Assembly (NCBI RefSeq): GCF_009936275.1
Contig: NZ_AP019797.1
Coordinates: 2,277,890 to 2,341,889 of the forward strand
Source: Rhodothermus marinus
GTDB taxonomy: Bacteria; Bacteroidota; Rhodothermia; Rhodothermales; Rhodothermaceae
Direction of reading: 5' to 3'
DNA length: 64,000 nt
Positions 55,076 to 60,281 of this stretch are shown here, piece by piece (positions within the stretch are counted from its first letter, which is position 1; each line of letters begins with the position of its first letter). The notes beneath the pieces were generated by a model. The model was not told the DNA's origin. It searched no databases and saw only the letters and a program-made list of their open reading frames with translations. The translations under genes were made by a program, and so were the position numbers.

Positions 55076-55540
55076 CTATTCGGTCGGCGCAGCCGCCTCG
55101 CGCACCGGCACGCGCACGCGCAGCCGTCCCTGCCGGGCCAGGCTCAGATCGACAAGCACCACCTGTCCCGGCTCGAGCGCCTGCTGCAGATCGCGCAGCA
55201 CCAGCTGTACGGCCACGCGCGAACGCGCCGGAATCACGATGGACGTGGCCGGACGGGTGGTCTGCACCGTATCGCCCACCACCTCACGCAATGCGACGTT
55301 GCGCGTGACGGCCGGCGCTTCGGCTCCGACCAGCGTGTCGGCCTCGGCCGTGCCGTTGGCAATCCGCAGCGACACGATCGCGCTGTCGCCAGCGGCCGCC
55401 GCATAGACGACGGGTTCCTCCACGGCCAACCGCCCCTCCGGAAGCGGCGGCTCGGCCGGGGTCGCCGGCTGCTCGCGCTGCTGCTGTCCACAACCGATCA
55501 GCAGAAGCAGGCCCAGAAAAACCGTTGCCAGATACCGCAT
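55076..55540 (-). CDS. PCuAC-like lipoprotein lacking the copper ligands
   Basis: A 154-residue lipoprotein (LLLLIGC, Cys17) whose fold-defining text matches periplasmic copper chaperones PCuAC (SAIVSLRIANGTAEADTLVG, then PGQVVLVDLSLARQGRLRVR). The copper motif H(M)x10Mx21HxM appears to be gone: where the family has His-Glu it reads ALREVV, where it has the Met it reads TVQTTRP, and the HxM position reads VQLVL. It may have a new ligand or a scaffold role. It is the last gene of the ApbE cluster, 78 bases after the membrane-protein gene. The start is at ATG 55540, which gives the lipoprotein signal. Confidence 0.72.
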   Translation of the reverse strand: MRYLATVFLGLLLLIGCGQQQREQPATPAEPPLPEGRLAVEEPVVYAAAAGDSAIVSLRIANGTAEADTLVGAEAPAVTRNVALREVVGDTVQTTRPATSIVIPARSRVAVQLVLRDLQQALEPGQVVLVDLSLARQGRLRVRVPVREAAAPTE

Positions 55541-55618
55541 GACGTCTCCGGGGTTTGGTGAAGGGAGATTCTTTCTCCGCAAAAATCTGTATTCAAAAGA
55601 AAAGCAAAACGTGGCGTT

Positions 55619-56137
55619 TCACGCAACAGCGCGACGGTTACGTGGATGCCACATTTCCCAGAGCATCCGTGCGATCATTGCGTAGAGACAGACGAACGTC
55701 GAAGCCCCCGCCCCCAGCATCACCCAGGCCGTCGGCCGCGCCCAGCTTTCCGGCAAAAAGCGCACGGCCGCCATCCCGCCAAACAGCAACAGCGTGGCGA
55801 CGAACGGCTCCAGCGCCAGAATCGCCTTCCATCGCTCCGACACCGACGTGCCCAGAAAGAGCCCCCCGACGGCCAGAAAGATCAGCGCAAACGAAGTGAC
55901 GTGCGCATGAATGATGTTGAGCATTTCGTAGGGGCTCTTCGGATACTTGATCTCCTGCACCTGCTCCAGCGGCACGTCTTCGTTGCCCCGGAACTGATGC
56001 ACGACGCCCGTAGGCGTGTTGTGCGTGGTGTGCCGGACGAACACGATCCCGGTCAGATACCCCACGCCCACCACGATCAGAAACCAGGTCACCAGCCAGC
56101 GGGCCGTTCCCCGTAGTGCACCCAGCGAAAACGACAT
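55619..56137 (-). CDS. Four-helix membrane protein with paired histidines
   Basis: A 172-residue protein with about four transmembrane helices (about 14-34, 73-96, 104-124, 136-158). His36, His39 and His47 lie in the first loop (RHTTHNTPTGVVHQF), and His77 and His79 (IIHAHV) lie at the start of helix two. I do not recognise the family. The histidines at membrane edges could bind heme or metal, which is inference. It follows the FMN-binding-protein gene by 3 bases, so the two are translated from one mRNA. In the cluster context it could pass electrons between the quinone pool and the flavoprotein. Confidence 0.65.
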   Translation of the reverse strand: MSFSLGALRGTARWLVTWFLIVVGVGYLTGIVFVRHTTHNTPTGVVHQFRGNEDVPLEQVQEIKYPKSPYEMLNIIHAHVTSFALIFLAVGGLFLGTSVSERWKAILALEPFVATLLLFGGMAAVRFLPESWARPTAWVMLGAGASTFVCLYAMIARMLWEMWHPRNRRAVA

Positions 56138-56140
56138 CGG

Positions 56141-56719
56141 TCAGTTCGGGTGGTAGGTCAACTGCGGAGGATGCTTTCGGTATTGCGTGGTCACAAAATA
56201 CAACACTTTTTTGATCCCCCGATTCAGTGAGTTAACCGAAATAGTGGCGCCGCTGACGTTGACGATGTCACGATGTGTCTGGATGGGGTCCCGAAGCGTT
56301 TTGCCCCGGTACTGATAGAGAAAGCGCGGGAGCCGCACCTGTCCGCCGTGCGACTCCCGATAGACCATGACGGCCACTTTTTCTACGGAAAAATCAGGGC
56401 GCACGCCCACGATGAACGTGATGGGCCGGTGCTTGCCCAGCTCTTCGGTGATCACGGCGTAGCCCAGAAACCGGCCTTCGGCATCGTAGACGCACCTCAC
56501 GACCAGCACGGAATCGAGCGGTTCGGTGCGGCGCAGCGCCCGCCGCGCTTCCTCCAGTTCCTCCGGGGTGAAGCGTAACGTGTCGTACTGCACATAGCGC
56601 CCCTTCGGAAACACTTCGGCCAGCGCCTCCTCGGGCGTCAGGAACACCTGATCCTGCGCGCGCCCGGCAGGCGCCAGCATCCAGCCACACACCAGCAGCA
56701 AAAGCCCTGCGTAACGCAT
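56141..56719 (-). CDS. Exported FMN-binding-domain protein (ApbE substrate candidate)
   Basis: A 192-residue protein with a signal peptide (LLLLVCGWMLAPAGRAQ) and a C-terminal FMN_bind domain like that of NqrC/RnfG. The flavinylation motif is SGATIS (156-161), where Thr159 would carry FMN through a phosphoester bond. NqrC and RnfG usually have Asp two residues before SGAT, while here it is Asn154 (IVNVSGAT). The flavin transferase ApbE is encoded two genes upstream on the same strand. Hence it is likely a flavin electron carrier outside the inner membrane. Confidence 0.82.
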   Translation of the reverse strand: MRYAGLLLLVCGWMLAPAGRAQDQVFLTPEEALAEVFPKGRYVQYDTLRFTPEELEEARRALRRTEPLDSVLVVRCVYDAEGRFLGYAVITEELGKHRPITFIVGVRPDFSVEKVAVMVYRESHGGQVRLPRFLYQYRGKTLRDPIQTHRDIVNVSGATISVNSLNRGIKKVLYFVTTQYRKHPPQLTYHPN

Positions 56720-56735
56720 CCGTAAGCCTGGTTGG

Positions 56736-56775
56736 AAAAATGACCGGGCCGGCGCCGCGCGCGGCGCCGGCCCGG
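56736..56775 (-). terminator. Perfect 32-base palindrome with T run after the barrel gene
   Basis: Positions 56744-56775 are a perfect GC-only inverted repeat (arms of 16 bases). On the minus strand it is followed by TCATTTTT (As at 56736-56740). It lies 17 bases after the barrel-gene stop and 17 bases before the FMN-binding gene, so it would terminate or attenuate transcription inside the cluster. Confidence 0.75.
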
Positions 56776-56791
56776 ATGGTTCGCCATCCGC

Positions 56792-58207
56792 TCAGAAGCC
56801 GAAGACCACGCCGAAGATAAACGCCCGGGCGAAGTCTTCGTCGCCTTCGGCGATCAGATAGTTCGTCACGTCGCCCAGGCTGTGGCCCTTGTTCGTCCAG
56901 GTCAGCTCGTAGGCCAGTTGGAAGCCCACCAGCGGCGTGGGCCGGTAGGTCAGCCCGAAAGCCAGCCGGTTCACCCAGCGGTTGGCCGCCTCGAACTCCT
57001 CCAGCACGCCGGCCGCAAACTCGGCCTCCTCCAGCAGCTCGTCGTACCAGACCTGCTCCCAGCGCACACCGGCATACCAGAGCGGCTGATTGCCCCGGCC
57101 GAAGAACGTGTTGCGCAGAAATTCGGGGAAGAACGCATAGCGGGCTTCCACCCAGTAGCCCTGGCGCGCCCGGCTCAGGCCGTCCAGCTCGACCTCCACC
57201 TCGCTTTCGAGCGGCACCTCGTCTTCGGCCGGACCGAACGCCACGCCAGCCTGGTTGTAGACGCGCCGCGCAAACCCCCGCGCCACGGCCTCCACGTCGC
57301 CCATCGACGTGTAGACGTACTCGCCTTCGAGCGCCAGTGCCCCCCGGCTCAGCAGAAAGTCCACGCCCACACTGCCCACGTACTCGGCCGGTAGATACTG
57401 GGGCGTGTAACGGCCGTAGTAGCCCGAAAGCCCCAGCTCCACGCCCAGCGACGGACTCAGCGCCACGCGGCCCGTCACCGTTTTGGCCTGCTTCGTGTCG
57501 TTGCCGAACGTGCCCGTGAAGGGCTCGAACTTCAGCTCGATGTAGTTGTCCACGTGGTTGCCGGGGCTGCCCGCATAATCCGGATTGGTGATGTACTTGT
57601 TTTCGACCTCCACGTCGAGCTGCATCCCGTTCACCACGTAGAGCTGATAGGTGAGCAGCCCCTGCGCGCCCACCGGCACTTCGCCCGTGAAGCCCAGGCC
57701 CAGCTCGTTCCAGGCCGACTTGACGGGCAGCACGGGCGCACCGCGATCGACCAGCGAGCGCCGCGGAAACATCCACTGGTTGTCGTCATGGTTGATGTTG
57801 AAGCGTCCCAGCGGCACCAGCACGCCACCGGCCCGCAGCCGGAAGGCCGGATCGATGGCCCACTCCAGCCAGGCCTGTTCGATGGCGATCTCAGACTGAT
57901 CCGTCCCCTCGATGGCCTGCTCGACCGTCACGCCGCCCTCGGCTTCCACCACCTTTTCCAGCTCCAGCAGCCGGAAGCGTTCCAGCTCCAGCTCCGACAG
58001 AAAGCGCAGGTTCGAGGTGATCGCCACGTCGGTGGTCAGCACGAAGCGACGGAACGTGAACGTGTTGTACTGGTGCTCCAGGTTGGTGGTCTCGAAGCGA
58101 ATGGCGCCGTAGCCGCCCAGGCGTGCCCGCTCGCCTTCGTCCTGCGCACGCACCGGCCCGGCCAGCAATAGCGCCAGCAACAGCCATCCCGTGTATCGAC
58201 GCATCAT
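56792..58207 (-). CDS. Outer-membrane porin-like beta-barrel of the ApbE cluster
   Basis: A 471-residue protein with a signal peptide (YTGWLLLALLLAGPVRAQ) and a body of alternating strands. The early segment GGYGAIRFETTNLEHQYNTF resembles phosphate-selective-porin-like (OprO/P) barrels. The protein ends in the strand FARAFIFGVVFGF with a terminal Phe, as required for barrel insertion. Its start overlaps the apbE stop by 4 bases. It may let flavins, metals or other electron acceptors pass the outer membrane, which is inferred from context. Confidence 0.78.
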   Translation of the reverse strand: MMRRYTGWLLLALLLAGPVRAQDEGERARLGGYGAIRFETTNLEHQYNTFTFRRFVLTTDVAITSNLRFLSELELERFRLLELEKVVEAEGGVTVEQAIEGTDQSEIAIEQAWLEWAIDPAFRLRAGGVLVPLGRFNINHDDNQWMFPRRSLVDRGAPVLPVKSAWNELGLGFTGEVPVGAQGLLTYQLYVVNGMQLDVEVENKYITNPDYAGSPGNHVDNYIELKFEPFTGTFGNDTKQAKTVTGRVALSPSLGVELGLSGYYGRYTPQYLPAEYVGSVGVDFLLSRGALALEGEYVYTSMGDVEAVARGFARRVYNQAGVAFGPAEDEVPLESEVEVELDGLSRARQGYWVEARYAFFPEFLRNTFFGRGNQPLWYAGVRWEQVWYDELLEEAEFAAGVLEEFEAANRWVNRLAFGLTYRPTPLVGFQLAYELTWTNKGHSLGDVTNYLIAEGDEDFARAFIFGVVFGF

Positions 58208-59178
58208 GGAAGTCTCCCGGTTTGATCAGGTGAAACAGCAGCCAACGACCAGCGACAGGTCTGCACGCGCAGCCCTTCGGCATCCCGACGCGCCACCAGC
58301 GCCCCGACCGACGCCGGTAGCCAGGACGGATCGGGCTCGACCGCCAGCGCCGTGGCCAGCGCATCGGCCGCCCCGCAGGTGGGCGCCCACACCGTGACGC
58401 TTCCGTCGAGCCGGACGCGCGCCAGATCGCGGGGATCGACCAGCGTCGAGCCATCTGGCTCGTAGTCGCCGCTGGTGGCCAGCGCACCCTCGGTCAACGC
58501 CACGGTGGTCAGCACCTCGTCGGGCCGCAGCGGATGGCGGATGCCGATCGTCCATGCCGACCTGCCGGGCGGCGCGCCGAACACGCGCAGATCGCCTCCG
58601 GCGTTGACCAGCGCGGCCGTGCAACCGGCCTGCCGGAGCACCGCCACCGCCTGGTCCACGGCCCATCCCTTGGCACTACCACCCAGATCCAGCGCCACCG
58701 GCCCCCACTTGCGCAATCGTCCGTCCCCGTCCAGCTCCACCTGGCGCTCCGGCTGCGGCACCGGTGTCCGTCCCTGTTGCCAGGCGGCCACGGCGGCGCC
58801 TACGGTTGGATCGAAGCGCCCGTCCGTCGCCGCCCGCCAGCGGAGCGCCTCGGCCACGGCCCGGCGCGTCAGCTCCGGCAACACCAGCTCCGCGCCCGAA
58901 GGGCTCGCGTTCCAGCGGCTCAGGATCGACGCAGACTCCTGCACGCTCATCTGCCGGTGCACCTCGAAAAGCAGCGCGCTCGCGCGCCGGACGGCGTCCC
59001 GGGCCGCCGCCCGATCCGGGTGATAGACCTCGAAGCGCACGATCGTCCCCATCACGTAGTAAAGGCGCACCAGCGGCGTCTCCTCGGCCGCACGGGCCAG
59101 CAGCCGGAACGGCGAGCCGGCCAGCCATCCCCCGGCCATCAATCCTCCCAGCCGATGCAGGAACGTCCGTCGATCCAT
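58204..59178 (-). CDS. apbE: FAD:protein FMN transferase
   Basis: A 324-residue ApbE, which transfers FMN from FAD to Ser/Thr of exported proteins. The N-terminus has a TAT-like signal (MDRRTFLHRLGGLMAGGWLA). Motifs: YYVMGTIVRFEVY, ALDLGGSAKGWAVDQAV, VNAGGDLRVFG, GALATSGDYE and the C-terminal ADALATAL. It is the first gene of a cluster containing its probable substrate at 56141. A good promoter with an overlapping operator-like repeat lies at 59204-59235. Confidence 0.93.
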   Translation of the reverse strand: MDRRTFLHRLGGLMAGGWLAGSPFRLLARAAEETPLVRLYYVMGTIVRFEVYHPDRAAARDAVRRASALLFEVHRQMSVQESASILSRWNASPSGAELVLPELTRRAVAEALRWRAATDGRFDPTVGAAVAAWQQGRTPVPQPERQVELDGDGRLRKWGPVALDLGGSAKGWAVDQAVAVLRQAGCTAALVNAGGDLRVFGAPPGRSAWTIGIRHPLRPDEVLTTVALTEGALATSGDYEPDGSTLVDPRDLARVRLDGSVTVWAPTCGAADALATALAVEPDPSWLPASVGALVARRDAEGLRVQTCRWSLAAVSPDQTGRLP

Positions 59179-59203
59179 GCGACACGTCTTCGATTTACGA
59201 GCA

Positions 59204-59235
59204 CAAAACTTAGATCATGTCTAAATTAGAAGCAA
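59204..59235 (-). promoter_or_regulatory. Promoter of the ApbE cluster with overlapping inverted repeat
   Basis: On the minus strand TTG (59233-59235) is followed after 20 bases by TAAGTTTTG (59204-59212), the same layout as the HiPIP promoter. The inverted repeat TTAGA-TCATG-TCTAA (59210-59224) overlaps the upstream edge of the -7 element. That is a typical site for a repressor. Confidence 0.6.
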
Positions 59236-59379
59236 TAACATCGAGACAGCTTTCGGAAGATTTGACACCAACTCCACAGAAAAGCCAGATCGCGCTGCTC
59301 CTTCGACCTTGCTCCGCTGCTCGAAATGCAGGACTGCTTATGCAGTTTCCCGGACGTCAAGGTGCATGGGAGAAAGCAC

Positions 59380-59401
59380 GGGCGCACACGGCGGTGCGCC
59401 C
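59380..59401. repeat. Palindromic element 1 (REP/MITE-like)
   Basis: GGGCGCAC and GTGCGCCC form an 8-bp stem around a 6-base loop, followed by CTAC. It is one of a cluster of hairpins in non-coding DNA. Confidence 0.6.
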
Positions 59402-59435
59402 CTACCAGATCCCTGACATTTTCCCTACCCCGCAG

Positions 59436-59457
59436 GGGCGGACCCCTGTGTCCGCCC
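59436..59457. repeat. Palindromic element 2 (REP/MITE-like)
   Basis: GGGCGGAC and GTCCGCCC form an 8-bp stem around a 6-base loop. Stem length, loop length and GC pattern equal those of element 1, 56 bases away, suggesting one repeat family. Confidence 0.6.
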
Positions 59458-59565
59458 TGTCATACCCGCCGGATCACGTCCGCCACACGGGGTGTTGCCC
59501 CCTCATGCACCGGCAAATCGGCAATCCCATATACGCAGTTGCACGTGTCTGAACGAAGTCCTGCT

Positions 59566-59970
59566 TCACCGCAGCAGCGCGAACAGCGCCACGATCACTC
59601 CGATCTGTCCCGCCCAGAAAATGAACATCCAGCGCACCAGACTCGCATACCGCTCGCTGAGCGTCACCTCCAGCCGCGACACCTCCTCCGTGATCCGGCG
59701 GTCCAGCTTCGCCACCTCCTCCGTGATCCGGCGGTCCAGCTTCGCCACCTCCTCCGTGATCCGGCGGTCCAGTTTGGCAACCTCCTCTGCGATGCGATTG
59801 TCCAATCGCTTGCCTTCCTCGGTTACGCGCCGCTCAAAACGTTCTTCCAGAATGCCCAGCAGATTGTTGCGTTCGTGATGGGCCGCTTCGTTCAGCAAAG
59901 CGATCAGCGCCTCGACGCCCTCGTCGCCGAGTTTTTCGCGCAAAACTTTCGGGACCGTCAGAATCGCCAT
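59566..59970 (-). CDS. Membrane-anchored coiled-coil protein with hendecad repeats (short paralogue)
   Basis: A 134-residue paralogue of the protein at 39166. The first 45 residues (head) are almost identical, including MAILTVPKVLREKLGDEGVE and the HHERNNLLGILEERFERRV neck. The stalk is much shorter and contains three copies of the 11-residue unit LDRRITEEVAK. One C-terminal transmembrane helix follows (WMFIFWAGQIGVIVALFALL). The start is fixed by alignment of heads. The gene stands alone between repeat-rich DNA and a 311-base region with no gene. The function is unknown; DUF1640/CCDC90-like architecture is suggested. Confidence 0.75.
   Translation of the reverse strand: MAILTVPKVLREKLGDEGVEALIALLNEAAHHERNNLLGILEERFERRVTEEGKRLDNRIAEEVAKLDRRITEEVAKLDRRITEEVAKLDRRITEEVSRLEVTLSERYASLVRWMFIFWAGQIGVIVALFALLR
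59681..59779 (-). repeat. Three tandem 33-base repeats in the short coiled-coil gene
   Basis: Units at 59681, 59714 and 59747 code for the same 11 residues. The first two are identical and the third differs at a few bases. They resemble a short direct-repeat array but are in-frame coding sequence. Confidence 0.9.
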
Positions 59971-60281
59971 GAGCGGAAAAGGATGGCTCCGGGCGCAAAG
60001 GCAAACTCCGGGAGACGTGCGATAGGTTCCCGGGCCGAAACGCCCCGAGGTCTCCGCCAATCGTAACCCCGCGACACCGTTCCCGCTTCCCATGGGGAGC
60101 TATCGCGAAGCGACTGAGGCGGGGCTCATAGGATGCCGCGCACATGCACCAGAATGCCCGGAGAATCGTACTACGCTGACAGCTTCCAACCTTCCCGCGT
60201 AAACGATCAGGGCCGGCGCCATGGCCGGCCCTGTGGGTAATAGCCTGATGCCTCATACAGGCATCCCTGCTACATTCTGGG
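59971..60281. other. 311-base region without a recognisable gene
   Basis: This region lies between the short coiled-coil gene and gpmI, both on the minus strand. It contains a 10-bp hairpin at 60208-60233 and a small 7-bp hairpin near 60240-60258 (GATGCCT with AGGCATC). No coding frame with family resemblance, and no tRNA-like fold, was found. Confidence 0.6.
60208..60233 (-). terminator. Hairpin downstream of gpmI
   Basis: A 10-bp stem (CAGGGCCGGC with GCCGGCCCTG) with a 6-base loop lies about 50 bases after the gpmI stop. No T run follows on the minus strand, so it may only stabilise the transcript end. Confidence 0.4.

Follow-up and report, generated by a model that had tools for sequence, protein, structure and literature searches.

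An iron-linked operon for predicted protein flavinylation in Rhodothermus, with a porin and an unclassified four-helix membrane protein that recur across Bacteroidota

The subject of this analysis is a cluster of five genes on the minus strand of a 64-kb window, the whole stretch of DNA that was analysed, taken from a 3.43-Mb Rhodothermus chromosome; all coordinates below are positions in this window unless a locus number precedes them. The genes are apbE (58204-59178), encoding a flavin adenine dinucleotide (FAD):protein flavin mononucleotide (FMN) transferase with a signal of the twin-arginine translocation (Tat) type (DRRTFLHRLGG); an outer-membrane porin of the 16-stranded type (56792-58207); an exported FMN_bind protein with a signal peptide and no membrane anchor seen (56141-56719); an unclassified four-helix inner-membrane protein, here 4TM (55619-56137), the proposed electron donor to the flavoprotein; and a PCuAC-fold lipoprotein (55076-55540). 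An earlier reading of the letters alone, the sequence-only reading, had listed these five genes on one strand with a 4-base joint between apbE and the barrel gene and a 3-base joint between the genes for the flavoprotein and the membrane protein, and the coordinates bear it out: apbE and the porin gene share 4 bases (58204-58207) and the FMN_bind and 4TM genes lie 3 bases apart (56138-56140), while the other two joints are looser, at about 72 and 78 bases. The operon is preceded by a palindrome, TTTAGAnnnnnTCTAAA, annotated as the palindromic operator TTAGATCATGTCTAA at 59210-59224 (no strand assigned), 31 bases 5' of the apbE start codon.

The ApbE domain scores far above cut-off (PF02424, E 4.1e-50), and its Tat-like N-terminus was read from the sequence. 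The FMN_bind domain is also above cut-off (Pfam E 9e-7) and carries a flavinylation motif of the [S/T]GA[S/T] type, SGAT at residues 156-159 (56243-56254, minus strand), the GAT of which is invariant in 28/28 FMN_bind homologues. Thr159 is the expected FMN acceptor, and would give the protein a covalent, redox-active flavin. The FMN_bind profile is related to that of RnfG (9eri_G, E 4e-17); RnfG and NqrC share the domain and the [S/T]GAT motif and are related in sequence, but the Rhodothermus protein shows no anchor beyond its signal peptide, and its gene has no further Rnf or Nqr gene beside it. ApbE and the FMN_bind protein each occur once per Rhodothermus genome, except in G001, the seventh of these genomes, where neither was found, nor was 4TM. 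Since both are single-copy, they look like a dedicated predicted enzyme and substrate, and the pairing already suggested in the sequence-only reading is strengthened by the presence of exactly one candidate FMN_bind substrate for ApbE in the genome.

Synteny of the full set extends to four further Rhodothermus genomes, and a fifth keeps the order in the part present at a contig end, giving six of seven genomes with one only partly seen. To look beyond the genus, a 4TM profile was searched against 394 Bacteroidota genomes and 43 loci were compared. The 4TM family occurs in 39 of these genomes, from 32 genera; a narrower profile scan of contigs returned only Fodinibius-like and Rhodothermus-like loci. 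FMN_bind adjoins 4TM at 42/43 loci, mostly with overlapping start and stop codons, a homologous porin directly precedes FMN_bind at 32/43, and apbE lies in the same neighbourhood at 19/43. Gene order is variable, with apbE first in Rhodothermus and last elsewhere, and all 16 tested genomes without a neighbouring apbE carry the gene elsewhere. The cluster is therefore a real unit, as had been proposed, with a core of porin, FMN_bind and 4TM, often with ApbE, that recurs across Bacteroidota far from what chance would give. The proposed five-gene membership stands for the core genes; the lipoprotein belongs to the cluster in Rhodothermus only, being present in six Rhodothermus genomes and confined to the genus among the loci examined. 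This accessory protein matches Pfam PCuAC (E 1e-10), but in contrast to the PCuAC copper chaperone its mature sequence contains neither His nor Met (0 of each), the copper ligands. Given this lack of ligands and the restricted distribution of the gene, a copper role for the module was rejected.

The palindrome 31 bases before apbE is kept in each of the five Rhodothermus genomes that include upstream sequence, within flanks that have diverged. Genome-wide counts from pattern searches give four copies of TTAGAYNNNRTCTAA in the 3.43-Mb genome, against 0 for a reversed-pattern control, and three to five operator copies in each of the seven Rhodothermus genomes. In all seven a copy precedes feoA-feoA-feoB; in six the spacing to the start codon is about 30 bases, nearly equal to that at the apbE operon. 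Other Rhodothermus sites precede genes for TonB receptors, for a lipoprotein hydrolase and for a protein of 100 residues. The last, a protein of unknown function, is directly behind the operator in at least five Rhodothermus genomes (L118:5588-5913; homologues in L138, L142, L146 and L147). The lipoprotein, an alpha/beta-hydrolase followed by a GNAT gene (L119:5382-6490, L139, L143, L148, L150 and L153), is possibly a siderophore-ester hydrolase.

A palindrome search without a preset motif, run upstream of the module porin in other Bacteroidota, recovered the same motif. With at most one mismatch, TTTAGANNNNNTCTAAA is found no more than 200 bp from the module porin at 24/35 loci outside Rhodothermus, compared with a mean of 0.2 and a maximum of 2 for shuffles and with 8/228 for other genes of the same loci. 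Nine loci lack the palindrome at up to two mismatches, and each has an iron gene near the module, a pattern that was seen in the data first and is thus post hoc, and to which neighbouring loci of shared ancestry contribute. These genes are Fur-FeoA-FeoB (L082), FeoB (L107, L108), Fur (L093), FbpA behind a variant palindrome in Fodinibius and relatives (L043, L044, L045, L047) and a TonB receptor with a perfect site (L041). In genome-wide searches of other Bacteroidota the motif was also met before feoAB, fur-feoAB, hemA, the gene for a FecA-like receptor and some genes of respiration; control counts are 0-2 per genome, so any single genome-wide site may be due to chance, and gene names at sites without a Pfam call are readings of the translations. 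The palindromes before hemA, the cytochrome b of succinate dehydrogenase (SDH), the cytochrome c of alternative complex III and nqrA come from three related genomes (L180, L181, L176, L165, L177, L178, L168) and could belong to a wider iron regulon.

These data suggest that the operon is iron-regulated, through an operator that it has in common with iron-uptake genes. The Rhodothermus genome encodes one Fur and one protein that combines DtxR and FeoA. Fur is favoured as the predicted repressor, since in two other genomes fur itself carries an operator site, with the Rhodothermus DtxR-FeoA protein as the alternative. The latter, in which a FeoA domain is joined to a DtxR-family repressor, is encoded at L156:1597-2253, where its gene appears to form an operon with a TroA-like metal ATP-binding cassette transporter. 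For Riemerella, an RNA sequencing paper reports feoAB as induced under iron limitation, and the main text of that paper contains no FMN term.

The AlphaFold2 model of 4TM is of high confidence, with a predicted local distance difference test score (pLDDT) of 93.6 and a predicted template modelling (pTM) score of 0.85, and has four transmembrane helices, the first of which is followed by a short additional helix. Only G51, H77 and H79 are fully invariant among 46 sequences. H77-x-H79 (55901-55909, minus strand) lies in the second transmembrane helix, near what we read from the charge pattern as its outer, periplasmic end. No other His is conserved, and the description of the protein as His-rich in the sequence-only reading is therefore misleading. 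The same reading had considered heme as a cofactor; a classical bis-His heme bridging two helices is unsupported, since the only conserved His pair sits in one helix, but the pair could serve a heme site in a homodimer. No Pfam family was above cut-off for 4TM, and no clear relative was found in the PDB either by sequence or by fold search; FAT domains and cytochrome oxidase came up at Z 7-9, the range expected for any helical bundle, and nothing was concluded from them. A match to DUF998 (E 0.0025) was under cut-off and was not taken as a family assignment.

4TM was compared with the membrane partners of flavinylated proteins, several of them iron-linked, that Meheust et al. 2021 (PMC8238504) and Huang et al. 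2024 (PMC11334425) describe. The systems of PMC8238504 (NapH-, MsrQ-, PepSY-, DsbD- and NQR/RNF-like) likewise combine ApbE, an exported FMN_bind protein and a membrane electron donor, and several are tied to iron assimilation. They differ from the Rhodothermus module in that 4TM falls outside their defining Pfam families and in that a porin is the constant partner here; the main text of PMC8238504 contains none of the terms porin, beta-barrel and Bacteroid-. Specifically, 4TM gave no match to PF12801, PF01794, PF03929/PF16357, PF02683 or PF03116 at Pfam E up to 1, and two distant members of the family gave none at E up to 0.1. The DUF4405/FezC cytochromes of PMC11334425 are also small membrane proteins with conserved His, and DUF4405 adjoins apbE and is proposed to feed a flavoprotein, but 4TM, with its four helices and one HxH pair, differs from the six-helix DUF4405 with four central His; 4TM did not match PF14358 and lacks the four conserved central His. 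The P19/FTR1 iron-uptake clusters with FMN_bind (PMC8238504) similarly tie a flavoprotein to iron uptake, whereas no P19 or FTR1 was seen here and the importer of the regulon is FeoB. At locus L041, a b561/DUF4405-like protein that is not detectably a 4TM homologue occupies the position of 4TM, between FMN_bind and apbE; this is a single case with Pfam scores below the curated cut-offs, but the replacement fits an electron-transfer role for 4TM. A literature search for the gene set found nothing, and the remark in the sequence-only reading that no characterised system has exactly these parts still applies, inasmuch as no published flavinylation system with a porin partner or 4TM was found in the two papers. 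Because 4TM lies outside the known partner families, we assign the module to flavinylation-based electron-transfer systems in the broad sense, as one whose membrane partner is new, without a named subclass.

For the porin there was likewise no Pfam family above cut-off, and its profile gave only weak matches, to OmpX, among PDB sequences. The AlphaFold2 model, of moderate confidence (pLDDT 75.7), is a barrel, with the 16-stranded OprP and OprO as its nearest folds in the PDB (E 1e-13); in Foldseek, this moderate-confidence model aligns to 2o4v with an E of 1.2e-13 and template modelling (TM) scores of 0.51/0.57, as expected for an OprP-type fold. The similarity is confined to the fold, as no sequence relation to OprP or OprO was found, and where the title of the OprP entry speaks of an arginine ladder the module porin has a Glu triad. 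This triad (E72, E74, E76) is invariant in 37/37 sequences, together with E110, H140, R54 and R150. Alternating on one strand, its glutamates should face the lumen and, in our view, favour cations. Iron or small chelates may enter through the porin.

Taken together, the operon is probably an iron-regulated, flavin-based module for the reduction of iron in the periplasm. We infer the following route. At low iron an iron-sensing repressor, most likely Fur or else a DtxR-type protein, would leave the operator, and the operon would be switched on along with the TonB receptors and FeoB, the importer of Fe(II). ApbE would then attach FMN to Thr159 of the exported FMN_bind protein, and 4TM would pass electrons from the membrane quinol pool to this FMN. 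The reduced flavoprotein could in turn reduce periplasmic Fe(III), or Fe(III) complexes that have entered via the porin or the TonB receptors, and FeoB would import the resulting Fe(II). An electron route from the membrane to a flavoprotein, as put forward in the sequence-only reading, is still the best interpretation of the parts; what changes is its purpose, since an operator common to feoAAB and TonB receptors, along with adjacent FeoB, Fur and FbpA genes, favours iron acquisition over a respiratory route. The best reading of the operon is thus a periplasmic ferric reductase that is induced by iron starvation and has a new type of membrane electron donor, and not a respiratory extracellular pathway.

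Several observations weigh against this proposal and lend some weight to others. Fe(III) uptake would not obviously require a general porin, and the proposal does not account for its constancy as a partner. With one conserved His pair in a single helix, the cofactor of 4TM and its quinol site are guesses. The operator also precedes SDH cytochrome b, alternative complex III cytochrome c and NqrA in some genomes, so iron control alone is no proof of iron acquisition. Finally, in another branch of the Rhodothermia (L035-L038, L040, L042, L046, L048 and L049) 4TM and FMN_bind stand beside a c7/c3-type cytochrome, an unrelated barrel, a small CxxCH lipoprotein and an ethylbenzene-dehydrogenase-like (EB_dh) heme protein. 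The arrangement resembles a respiratory form of the module, and the 4TM/FMN_bind pair may there be used for something else.

The operator sites at respiratory genes and the branch with c-type cytochromes would both suit an iron-sparing carrier, in which the covalent flavoprotein replaces an iron-containing periplasmic cytochrome when iron is scarce and maintains respiration or redox balance without reducing any iron, much as flavodoxin replaces ferredoxin. An iron-type operator is what such a carrier would be expected to have, and the principle is discussed in PMC8238504, but the porin and the direct linkage to FeoB, Fur and FbpA would be left unexplained, and we regard this explanation as rather unlikely. 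The parts list by itself would also allow an energy-conserving respiratory or extracellular route, with electrons flowing from quinol via 4TM and the flavoprotein to acceptors that enter through the barrel, and the multihaem cytochrome, EB_dh protein and additional barrel of the Rhodothermia branch point the same way; as most genomes have no terminal reductase or multihaem cytochrome that was seen beside the module, and the operator is shared with iron import, it is very improbable for the operon as such. Lastly, 4TM could be a metal permease whose HxH motif binds the Fe(II) that the flavoprotein produces and hands it on inwards, as might be imagined from the iron regulation, the tight coupling to FMN_bind and the fact that HxH and G51 are the sole fully invariant residues. 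FeoB is present and co-regulated, there is no conserved polar path across the helices, and a cytochrome-like protein takes the place of 4TM in L041, making a permease the least probable of the explanations considered here. Iron reduction in the periplasm accordingly remains our preferred reading, and whether it extends to the phylum as a new class of flavin-based assimilatory ferric reductase of Bacteroidota, defined by the four-helix single-HxH family, the acidic-ladder porin and the iron operator, is in our estimate an even bet.

Two further features lie upstream of the operon. An intergenic repeat of about 190 bases (59346-59532) recurs in the Rhodothermus genome (L119:2174-2359, L118:3110-3274), its copies being 80-89% identical and one of them located upstream of apbE. 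Beyond it, 59566-60093 encodes a coiled-coil membrane protein with tandem RRITEEVAKLD repeats that is present in G004; the loci from three other Rhodothermus genomes showed no copy of it.

Soils, seas and guts all harbour abundant Bacteroidota and, to our knowledge, the reduction of periplasmic Fe(III) ahead of import by FeoB is poorly characterised in this phylum. The module is a concrete candidate of three to four genes for this step, with a predicted regulator, a predicted flavin-acceptor residue and an unclassified membrane protein family, and through 4TM it would extend the range of membrane partners known from flavinylation systems. In addition, the operator motif may be used to map iron regulons across Bacteroidota.

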